Positions 43,683 to 46,682 of a stretch of DNA of 46,682 nucleotides are shown here, one piece after another. The notes under the pieces are model-generated. The model made no database searches. It was not told the DNA's origin and worked only from the letters and a program-made list of their open reading frames with translations. The first letter of the stretch is position 1. Every line of letters begins with the position of its first letter. Source of the DNA: Planctomycetota bacterium (GTDB lineage Bacteria > Planctomycetota > Phycisphaerae > Sedimentisphaerales > Anaerohalosphaeraceae); contig VGXU01000017.1 of NCBI GenBank assembly GCA_016873215.1, positions 1 to 46,682 of the forward strand. Direction: 5' to 3'. A program made the position numbers and the translations under genes.

Positions 43683-44399
43683 TCAGGCGAAAATGGCCGA
43701 ACCGATGCGAACCATCGTGGCGCCCATTTCGATGGCGATTTCATAGTCCTGGCTCATTCCCATACTCAGGTGATGAAACCGTGAACCGACGATTTTTTCG
43801 GACTTGATTTCCTCAAACAGTTCCCGGGCGCGGGCAAAGGCCGTGCGGACAACTTCTTTGTCCATCGTCAGCGGCGCCATCGTCATCAGTCCTTCCAGAC
43901 GGAGATTGGGCATCGAGGCGATTTGTTCGGCCAAATGAATCACCGCCCCGACGGGAGCGCCGTATTTTTGCGGTTCTTCGGAACAATTAACCTGCAAAAG
44001 GATAGGAACATGCAAATGAAGTTTCGCCGCGGCCGCGTCAATTTCCTCGGCCAGACGCAGCGTATCGACCGAATGAATCATCGTGCAGATTTGCAGCGTG
44101 GGTTTGACCTTGTTGCGCTGCAGATGGCCGATCATGTGCCAATGGATTTGCGAAGCTAAGTGCGCCTGGCCGGAAGCCTGCAGCGATTCGCCGACCTGGT
44201 CGGCAATCTGCTTGAGGTGCTGGACGCGGTTTTCACCCAACTCGATAAAACCCGCCCGCACAACCTCGATAATCTGCTCGATGGAAGCGGTCTTGGTGAC
44301 AACAATCAACTGAGCGCTGTCGGGCTTTCGGCCCGCTTTCACACAGGCCGATGCGATGCCGTCCTGAATCTGTCTGAGTTTTTCCGCAATCGGAGGCAT
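43683..44399 (-). CDS. YggS/PLPBP family pyridoxal phosphate homeostasis protein
   Basis: 238 residues, the usual length of the single-domain alanine-racemase-fold family. The PLP Lys is in LIVVTKTASIEQIIEVV; FIELGENRVQ, IHWHMIGHLQRNK, LQVNCSEEPQKYG and LSMGMSQDYEIAIEMGATMVRIGSAIF follow in the standard order. It binds PLP and keeps its free level in check rather than catalysing a reaction. It ends right of a gap that holds no clear regulatory element and begins 39 bases after the topoisomerase gene stops. Confidence 0.94.
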   Translation of the reverse strand: MPPIAEKLRQIQDGIASACVKAGRKPDSAQLIVVTKTASIEQIIEVVRAGFIELGENRVQHLKQIADQVGESLQASGQAHLASQIHWHMIGHLQRNKVKPTLQICTMIHSVDTLRLAEEIDAAAAKLHLHVPILLQVNCSEEPQKYGAPVGAVIHLAEQIASMPNLRLEGLMTMAPLTMDKEVVRTAFARARELFEEIKSEKIVGSRFHHLSMGMSQDYEIAIEMGATMVRIGSAIFA

Positions 44400-44437
44400 G
44401 GATTCCGTTCAACCCATAAGAAATGGTTCTGAATCGT

Positions 44438-45526
44438 TTAAGGTAAAAACTTCGACGGGTCTTTCAGCTTTTTCGGCAGGTACTCGGTGACGACAAACTC
44501 AAGGCCGTGCTTGGCGAACGCCTGCTGTTCGACGCGGACGCCCATATTCAGCATCTGGTTCATCGCCGCCTGCCACGGTTTGTAATACTTGACAAAGGGG
44601 TCGTTTTTCAGGGCGTCCTTGGCCCGTTTGATGTCCACGTCCTTGAGCGGATGGGTCGGCAGCTTGTAATCCACAATGTCCTGCGGCGTTACGCCCAGAA
44701 ACCGCGCCTGCGGAACGCAGAAAAATTCATTCAGATGCGCCGCGTTGCCCGAGCCGACTTTTAAGGTACGGTAAATATTAAAATAGCCGTAAGGGTCGCC
44801 GTCCACAAAGGCATAAACCGGCAATTTCAGTTTATCGCTGAGCCGGCGGATAAACCGTCGGCACGCCCGTGTCGGAACGCCGCCCATGCTGATGAGGATG
44901 CAGTGCGTTTTTTTCCAGTAGTCGTATTTGACTAACCGCTGGAAGGCACCGGCGGTTTCAATTGCCAAAATAAATTTGGCGTCGGAAATAAAATCGAGGT
45001 CTTCAACAACGGTGGGAATGGAGTAGGCGCCGGAACCGAATTTGGTGCAGTCGATTTTGAGTTTCTTGCCGGAGGCATCTTTGTCAATGACGAACAAATT
45101 CCCGGCCACGTCGCCGCCTTTTTCTTCGGGGATGAATTTCAGTTGTTCGCGGTTGACGCTGAACATCGCCTCGATATCATCCATGATCGTGTCCGATTCA
45201 GGCTGCTCGGCAAACGCGGCCTTGCCCCAGTTCTTCGAGATATAATAGGCCTCTCGTTTGGTGGCCATATCGTCTTTTTCCACCAGTTCCTTGCTCAGGG
45301 CCATCATCTTCAGCGTCTGAGCAAAGGTCTTGACGGTGCCGACTGTCAGCGTGCGATTCTTGAATTTATCCTGAATCTGGAAATGGCCTTTCTTCTCCAT
45401 GTATTTCACATTGGCCAGTGAACGCACGGGGGTGCTCATCATGGGCTTCTGGCCGACCATCACTTTGTCATAAACCTCACGGGCGTTGTCTTTGATTTTT
45501 TCGACAATATTTATTTTATTTGCCAT
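44438..45526 (-). CDS. top6A: DNA topoisomerase VI subunit A (Spo11-like)
   Basis: ATG at 45526 with GGAG upstream; 362 residues, normal for the A subunit. The winged-helix/CAP part holds the DNA-cleaving tyrosine in TKREAYYISKNW (Tyr94 or 95). The TOPRIM domain follows with Glu190 (FILAIETAGAFQRL) and Asp242/Asp244 (VYAFVDGDPYGYFNIYRTLK). Together with the GHKL ATPase subunit B it makes a type IIB topoisomerase that passes one duplex through another. The type is standard in archaea and plants and rare in bacteria, where some planctomycetes have it. A gene for subunit B usually adjoins; none lies on either side here. Confidence 0.92.
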   Translation of the reverse strand: MANKINIVEKIKDNAREVYDKVMVGQKPMMSTPVRSLANVKYMEKKGHFQIQDKFKNRTLTVGTVKTFAQTLKMMALSKELVEKDDMATKREAYYISKNWGKAAFAEQPESDTIMDDIEAMFSVNREQLKFIPEEKGGDVAGNLFVIDKDASGKKLKIDCTKFGSGAYSIPTVVEDLDFISDAKFILAIETAGAFQRLVKYDYWKKTHCILISMGGVPTRACRRFIRRLSDKLKLPVYAFVDGDPYGYFNIYRTLKVGSGNAAHLNEFFCVPQARFLGVTPQDIVDYKLPTHPLKDVDIKRAKDALKNDPFVKYYKPWQAAMNQMLNMGVRVEQQAFAKHGLEFVVTEYLPKKLKDPSKFLP

Positions 45527-45745
45527 ATTACACTCCAAAATGGCGTCCTGCTGTCACAATAACGATAGAAGTCATATAATACTGATAAATGTAAGTGAAA
45601 ATCAAATCCTATGCAAGGGGGAATTAAAATCATCGTGTGTAGGTAAAAGTACCGATATATTTCTGCAAAGCGGACGTCCTGACCGGCGGAATAAAACAAT
45701 TGCTCTTTAAAATTCATTTTTTTTGCATTTTTGTCGATAGATAGA

Positions 45746-45774
45746 TTGACAATTATATGGGTAATGATTATATT
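45746..45774 (+). promoter_or_regulatory. sigma70-type promoter of a candidate small RNA
   Basis: TTGACA at 45746-45751 (6/6) and TATATT at 45769-45774 (5/6), separated by 17 bases. Transcription would begin around 45781, at the first base of the structured RNA. No protein gene follows on this strand before the window ends. Confidence 0.65.
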
Positions 45775-45780
45775 GCTAAT

Positions 45781-45890
45781 AGGAGCATAAGCAGTCGCCG
45801 CATGGGTGACTGAGTGTATAAACCTCGGCGAGGCTATGTGGTCATCCGTTTTCCCCCCCAGACGGACCCACTACCTCGCCACTTTTTTGT
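45781..45890 (+). ncRNA. candidate structured small RNA of about 110 nt
   Basis: Starting about seven bases after a good -10 box and ending in a U-run, the segment folds into two hairpins. Hairpin 1 spans 45792-45812: CAGTCGCC pairs with GGGTGACTG (8 pairs including one G-U, loop of 5). Hairpin 2 spans 45827-45879: GGCGAGG with CCTCGCC, GTGG with CCAC, TCCG with CGGA, capped by a 13-base loop holding TTTT and six C. Six T follow at 45882-45887. The CCTC at 45823-45826 could also pair with GAGG of hairpin 2, allowing an alternative fold. I do not recognise it as 6S, SRP RNA, tmRNA or a known riboswitch. A C-rich loop of this kind can target ribosome binding sites. Confidence 0.55.
45827..45887 (+). 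terminator. intrinsic terminator of the candidate small RNA
   Basis: Hairpin with a 7-bp GC-rich base (GGCGAGG/CCTCGCC), extended by two inner helices and followed two bases later by six T. A classic Rho-independent form. It does not serve a protein gene on this strand. Confidence 0.65.
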
Positions 45891-46032
45891 CTCTTAAAAA
45901 AAGACCCCATCTGTCTTGTATAGCTCTGTTTATAGAAACGCGGCTGTTTTGATAATCTTAAAATATACAAGAGCGTTTTACTTTTGTTTTAGTCCAGAGA
46001 TTGAATAGGGTGTCAATATAGATAGCAGTTAT
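45888..46032. other. intergenic stretch, nothing further recognised
   Basis: AT-rich DNA between the candidate small RNA and the end of the yjbQ-like gene. No open frame, promoter of note or repeat was recognised. The topoisomerase promoter should lie between 45527 and 45745, on the minus strand, but I could not pick a convincing one. Confidence 0.5.
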
Positions 46033-46443
46033 TTATTCCCCTGAAATCTGGACGTGTAATGTCCTGCTTCTTGGCCCATCGAACTCACAGAAGAAAATTC
46101 CCTGCCAGGGTCCAAGCACAAAACTTCCGTTATGGATAAAAATTTGCCGGCTGCACCCGATAAGGGAGGATTTGACATGGGCGTCGCTGTTGCCTTCGTT
46201 GTGCTGATAGCCGGGTAGATTTTGAGGAATCAGTTTTTCAAGGGTCAGCAGGATGTCGTGCGGCACGTCAGGGTCGGCGTTTTCGTTAATGGTCACCGCC
46301 GCGGTGGTGTGAGGGCAATAGACCGTCGCGCAGCCGTTTTGAATTCCGCTTTGGGTAACCAACTCAGACACCTGACGGGTAATGTCTATCATCTGGCATC
46401 GCCTTGAACTGCGAAGGGATAACACATCCTGCGCAATCTTCAT
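46033..46443 (-). CDS. YjbQ/UPF0047 family protein
   Basis: 136 residues, full length. The family signature residues are all present: CPHTTAAVTINENADPDVPHD, HNEGNSDAHVKSSLIG with its His/Asp/His ligands, and GPWQGIFFCEFDGPRSR at the end. Some members were reported to have weak thiamine-phosphate synthase activity, but the physiological role of the family is unsettled. GGAGG five bases before the ATG makes the start secure. Confidence 0.93.
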   Translation of the reverse strand: MKIAQDVLSLRSSRRCQMIDITRQVSELVTQSGIQNGCATVYCPHTTAAVTINENADPDVPHDILLTLEKLIPQNLPGYQHNEGNSDAHVKSSLIGCSRQIFIHNGSFVLGPWQGIFFCEFDGPRSRTLHVQISGE

Positions 46444-46466
46444 ACAACCTCCTTATAAAAAAAACT

Positions 46467-46559
46467 CGCAAGCGACGGGATTTCCAACAAAAACGCAGTA
46501 GCACGGAGCGCAAGCGACGGGATTCCCAACAAAAACGCAGCAGCCCGGAGCGCAAGAGC
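46467..46559. repeat. 42-bp tandem repeat, two full copies and a 9-base third
   Basis: Copies at 46467-46508 and 46509-46550 differ at three positions; 46551-46559 begins a third. Each starts CGCAAGCGACGGGATT and contains CAACAAAAACGCAG. The array sits upstream of the yjbQ-like gene, in what should be its promoter region. 42 is a multiple of three, and the minus strand reads through as a 14-residue repeat, but no start or family supports translation. Confidence 0.8.
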
Positions 46560-46682
46560 TTTTTGCATCAAAATCCAATTTTAACATATTAATTTCTCCA
46601 AGCATTATAAAATATCATTTTACCACGTACCCAATTTTCAACTCGGAATTTCGTGCGAACCCAATTGGGCAATGGTTTGAGG
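46560..46682. other. intergenic end of the window
   Basis: AT-rich sequence with a short CCCAATTGGG palindrome near 46661. No gene seen. Confidence 0.4.

Follow-up and report, generated by a model that had tools for sequence, protein, structure and literature searches.

The closest working analogue of the RNA described here is the 6C/B11 small RNA of Actinobacteria (RF01066), likewise a short stand-alone RNA with a C-rich loop in an intrinsic-terminator hairpin. In the sections of the published accounts that we consulted, M. marinum 6C/B11 uses its C-rich terminator loop to pair with guanine tracts close to ribosome binding sites (PMC12395582). For M. abscessus B11, the consulted sections name a six-G tract in the 5' UTR as the presumed site, and either C-loop represses a reporter with a G6 tract in its 5' UTR (PMC10470900). 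The present RNA differs in coming from another phylum, in having another sequence that the RF01066 model does not match, and in carrying one C-rich loop where B11 has two. The consulted parts of the B11 literature make no mention of a GGCGAGG/CCUCGCC stem.

The locus lies near the end of a window (the whole stretch of DNA that was analysed) of 46,682 nucleotides from a genome of the order Sedimentisphaerales, where a first-pass annotation had placed a stand-alone small RNA. It has the following features:

45746 to 45774, plus strand: promoter, with TTGACA at 45746-45751, a 17-nt spacer and TATATT at 45769-45774
About 45781 to 45888, plus strand: predicted transcript of ~108 nt, its start inferred from the -10 box and its end from the T-run
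45785 to 45817, plus strand: hairpin 1, with a sequence free to vary between genomes and a hairpin retained at the site
45823 to 45833, plus strand: CCTCGGCGAGG block, whose GGCGAGG (45827-45833) forms the 5' strand of the lower stem
45827 to 45888, plus strand: terminator hairpin, with the GGCGAGG/CCTCGCC stem, two covarying upper stems, the C7 loop and T6
45853 to 45859, plus strand: C7 of the apical loop, the presumed pairing part, C6-C8 in 65 of 65 relatives
46033 to 46443, minus strand: yjbQ (UPF0047), convergent neighbour (Pfam PF01894, 1.1e-43)
44438 to 45538, minus strand: topoisomerase VI subunit A (top6A, Spo11-like; Pfam), divergent neighbour

The promoter matches the consensus at 11 of 12 positions and is the best among 11 promoter-like sites in 44000-46682. 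The site is also kept in relatives: 53 of 63 loci have TTGAC at a distance of 50-95 nt upstream of the core, where shuffles would give 6.9, and 43 of 63 have a promoter with at least 9 of 12 matches (4.7 in shuffles). The TTGACA-17-TATATT promoter of the first-pass annotation is thus confirmed. Its gene-free gap is borne out too, as no open reading frame of at least 60 amino acids overlaps 45746-45890 on either strand. The structured unit proposed there as an RNA of ~110 nt also stands, with the predicted length now put at ~108 nt. The locus combines what is expected of an independent small RNA gene, namely its own promoter, a terminator, a conserved structure and no reading frame.

The stretch 45782-45890 folds with an energy of -44 kcal/mol (-44.0; z = -4.8), and none of 200 shuffles folded as well. 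Behind the promoter come the variable hairpin, a nearly fixed CCUCGGCGAGG block, the long terminator hairpin with its C7 loop, and U6. The two hairpins and U-run terminator proposed earlier are therefore present, as hairpin 1 and a long GC-rich hairpin followed by TTTTTT (45883-45888); a simple terminator scanner listed no terminator here, probably because the hairpin has internal loops. The apical loop had been described as TTTT and six C. Its C-run holds, but consists of seven C (45853-45859), and the minimum-energy fold pairs three of the four U, leaving a loop of U plus C7. The suggestion of two alternative folds, with an upstream CCUC competing for GAGG, is not supported. CCTC is present at 45823-45826, but the fold that uses CCUC/GAGG reaches -32.9 kcal/mol against -44.0 for the main fold, i.e. 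11 kcal/mol worse. The CCTC is intact in 62 of the 65 relatives; the other three carry CCAC or TCAC, and all five further loci L277-L281 carry CCAC. A short-lived CCUC/GAGG form may be conceivable during transcription.

The gene is single-copy in its own genome, and querying 98 relatives with the DNA gave strong matches, mostly restricted to query positions 115-192. We aligned 65 sequences, omitting L071 (its contig ends inside the RNA) and leaving out L031-L035 (weak matches in the own genome and one duplicate) when the alignment was built. Of the 73 core positions, 22 are invariant in all 65 sequences: CGGCGAGG, the C two positions ahead of it, one G of a stem, six C of the loop, and CTCGCC. 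The loop C-run is C7 in 53 sequences, C8 in 11 and C6 in one. All 16 pairs of the terminator hairpin are retained (100% of cells paired), a figure that falls to 37-53% when the partners are slid by 1-3 columns. Changes on both sides occur at seven of the 16 pairs (46 cells vs 14.8 in shuffles), all within the two upper stems, whereas the lower stem is invariant in this alignment except for two G-U pairs. Family f2, which has diverged, shows changes in the lower stem as well, and L266 has GGCGAGA/TCTCGCC with pairing kept. Hairpin 1 behaves differently: its sequence is wholly different between genomes while some hairpin persists there (mean z of -2.2 over the 65 loci vs -0.3 in a control stretch), and its loops are variable and not C-rich, the C-run being confined to the terminator hairpin. 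Covariance analysis in related genomes, which the first-pass annotation had put forward as a check, thus reveals conserved sequence and structure throughout the order. This is a real RNA family, so far without a name.

Using the covariance model R1 and counting positives at E <= 0.01, we found matches in 133 of 161 Sedimentisphaerales genomes, 126 of them with a best E <= 1e-11. The remaining seven are G047, which we count as real despite its 36 bits because it adjoins yjbQ; G088, whose match belongs to a second RNA class located at flgM-like 3' ends; and the weak matches in G394, G428, G096, G077 and G062. When completeness of 90% or more and contamination of 5% or less are required, 61 of 66 genomes have the RNA, weak matches included. 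It is absent from all five genomes of family f4 (G041, G046, G050, G054 and G058), three of which are single contigs of 98-99% completeness. No such hairpin was seen after yjbQ in G041, and R1 found none at yjbQ in four genomes of f4 (loci L282-L285), where one match reached 10.8 bits (E 1.9). Family f2 retains a diverged copy at the locus, and some of its genomes have two in tandem. At L269:2852-3073 (minus strand) and L273:3001-3225 (plus strand), such tandem copies lie ~150 nt apart.

Outside the order, no convincing match was present in 294 genomes sampled evenly across the phylum. Nine genomes matched, seven of them from the order and two at 26-28 bits; the latter two matches sit in apparent coding stretches and were rejected as chance. 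A pattern scan of named genomes, for which 80 loci were listed of at least 116 stretches, contained 15 true members (at least 77 bits), while the others scored at most 19.3 bits or gave no match. Of 22 genomes, 15 have the hairpin GGCGAGG..CCTCGCC-T4 once, two have it twice and five lack it. Being mostly single or absent, it is not a common terminator, and we dropped that reading.

The surroundings of the RNA are also conserved. A convergent yjbQ lies beside it in 60 of the 80 loci with at least 700 nt of sequence on that side, and top6A or yggS (names from Pfam) lies upstream in 60 of the 69 loci with at least 1300 nt on that side, counts that include a few genomes twice. The next gene beyond is argS. 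This mostly kept neighbourhood points to vertical descent and argues against mobility. Just upstream of yjbQ, positions 46465-46560 of the window hold two direct copies of a unit of ~50 bases (CGCAAGCGACGGGATT.CCAACAAAAACGCAG).

Rfam 15 gave no match at the gathering threshold anywhere in the window. Relaxed to E <= 10, the scan of 45740-45920 produced RybB and SNORD49 only, at chance level, and neither 6S nor 6C, in agreement with the earlier statement that no known RNA class was recognisable. The 6C model matched none of nine genomes, in a search with a weak control (Corynebacterium glutamicum appeared only below the cut-off). The RNA shares with 6C the C-rich loop of an intrinsic terminator, but C-runs of about six or more in both hairpin loops are not found. 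Because it has no model match and a single C-loop, it is not a 6C member. CsrA/RsmA-titrating RNAs (the CsrB and RsmX/Y/Z class) are stand-alone structured RNAs as well, and CsrA is encoded in all 12 genomes tested. Unlike these titrating RNAs, the Sedimentisphaerales RNA has no conserved single-stranded ANGGA; none was found outside the stems in the alignment, which makes a CsrA sponge unlikely. The most fitting description is that of a new RNA family with a possibly 6C-like mode of action; we regard it as neither a CsrA sponge nor a riboswitch. At the level of titles and listings, we did not find it described in the literature on small RNAs in Planctomycetes, Sedimentisphaerales and Phycisphaerae, and none of the papers listed deals with small RNAs of this order.

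How might such an RNA work? We lean slightly towards a trans-acting, Hfq-independent small RNA that represses G-rich targets through its C7 loop. The gene itself is well supported: it stands alone in the Sedimentisphaerales genomes, is present in one copy and has been passed on vertically. Its RNA of ~108 nt presumably starts from a sigma-70-type promoter belonging to the gene and stops at the intrinsic terminator. The terminator hairpin, with its nearly fixed GGCGAGG/CCUCGCC lower stem, would double as the working part. Its U-C7-A loop would base-pair in trans, without Hfq, with G-rich stretches of target mRNAs, typically ribosome binding sites, and so lower the translation or stability of these mRNAs. 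Hairpin 1 may be a variable spacer or a 5' stabiliser. We favour C7 as the pairing part because the loop is constant at C6-C8 in all 65 sequences and 6C/B11 provides a precedent; the run is kept though the surrounding stem pairs vary and hairpin 1 changes freely. Hfq, which the host of an Hfq-dependent trans-acting RNA would encode, was found in none of the 11 genomes tested, in a search that detected it in five of 14 controls. Strong G-C pairing, able to do without a chaperone, would suit the tested genomes, which have CsrA but no Hfq. Across the order one RNA gene has stayed almost unchanged, and the usual RNA chaperone was not detected in the genomes tested. Should the C7 loop be the working part, the order would join the actinobacterial 6C RNAs as a second lineage in which a C-rich loop on a terminator serves as a seed without a chaperone, and a fixed sequence would be available for target searching.

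In the own genome, G6 is followed by ATG at 2-12 nt 78 times, compared with 34 for the reversed pattern, an excess that may reflect nothing beyond ordinary G-rich ribosome binding sites. Most of the 78 places lie inside genes or have no reading frame, and a repeated element explains several. Once duplicates and internal sites are removed, about four G6 sites precede a plausible gene start. We traced two of the genes in relatives, the sigma-54 activator L350 and the helicase L307, and found a G6 tract near the estimated start in only one of 10 and one of 17 related loci, respectively. Other G6 sites lie before a photolyase-related gene (L305, by Pfam) and a ThuA-like gene (L296, by eye). No conserved target emerged from this G6..ATG search of the own genome with two genes traced in relatives. 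The earlier idea that the C-rich loop is suited to G-rich ribosome binding sites gains from the constancy of the loop and the 6C/B11 precedent, and loses from the lack of a conserved G-tract at the two candidates. The same genome also carries a repeat, GGGGGGACGATGTACCATG, in at least five places, several of them near contig ends (e.g. G000:C32:29003-29021, C39:23760, C63:13416, C88:6800 and C106:2900).

Pairing in trans through the loop leaves the near-constancy of the lower stem without an explanation, which hints at a bound protein and makes a protein partner the main rival. The lower stem and the block CUCGGCGAGG...CCUCGCC would then bind a protein that the RNA titrates or guides, with the C-loop serving for recognition and not as a seed. 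This would suit the identity of CGGCGAGG and CUCGCC in 65 of 65 sequences while the upper stems covary, as well as the similar stem found again at the 3' ends of flgM-like mRNAs, each with two CsrA-type ANGGA sites. However, no candidate protein came to light and no conserved ANGGA lies outside the stems. The f2 lower stem, changing with pairing kept (L266), is not fully fixed, and a protein site would not by itself require seven loop C. We regard this explanation as possible, if rather unlikely. Less probable still is a cis-acting element of the yjbQ locus, providing antisense or 3' end control of the yjbQ mRNA or simply blocking transcription between convergent genes. The convergent yjbQ in 60 of 80 loci speaks for it, but yjbQ was not found (within 2 kb or the available sequence, often 1.5 kb) in the other 20 and lies 0.9-1.9 kb off in eight of the 60, while G041 keeps yjbQ without the RNA. 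Such an element also sits poorly with the RNA having its own promoter, and a terminator needs no conserved loop.

Two further explanations seem to us very improbable. A 5' leader or riboswitch-like attenuator of a downstream gene could use CCUC:GAGG as its antiterminator, as the two are able to pair and a terminator is present, but the downstream neighbour is on the opposite strand in most loci. We dropped the riboswitch or switch reading on the fold energy and the non-conservation of CCUC described above. A divergent 6S RNA or other housekeeping RNA would agree with a gene found almost throughout the order, usually in a single copy. 6S RNA, however, is far longer than ~108 nt and has a large central bubble; the present RNA is much shorter and has no such bubble, and no 6S was among the Rfam matches at E <= 10.

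Besides the small RNA itself, R1 also detected hairpins that resemble its terminator elsewhere. In a second RNA class of 13 loci from genomes of the order (L251-L263, 34-46 bits), a similar terminator hairpin ends the mRNA of a small FlgM-like protein, in a feature extending about 75 nt ahead of the R1 match and 68 nt beyond it. Exactly two ANGGA (CsrA-type) motifs precede the hairpin in all 13. What the two classes share is thus the stem and not the seed, since most of the 13 loci have a shorter C-run and L259 has none. The likeness to the small RNA may be due to common descent or convergence, and the element is possibly a CsrA-binding 3' UTR. The FlgM-like protein has no Pfam or solved-structure match, and NCBIfam FlgM matches two of the 13 (best E 0.0064); we chose the name mainly from inspecting the protein and, upstream in L254, an apparent sigma-28-like factor. 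It is tempting, though quite doubtful, to imagine a core riboregulator of this Hfq-less order, in which the fixed C7 would be a "universal seed" that restrains G-rich translation starts globally. Its terminator scaffold would also have been added to the 3' ends of fliA-flgM-type operons beside two CsrA sites, linking the C-seed regulator, CsrA and motility. A further hairpin, at L264:298-364 (minus strand) in genome G044, has the same UUUCCCCCCCAG loop and a T-run on an unrelated lower stem (AACCCAGAUU/AAUCUGGGUU); G044 also has the main RNA.
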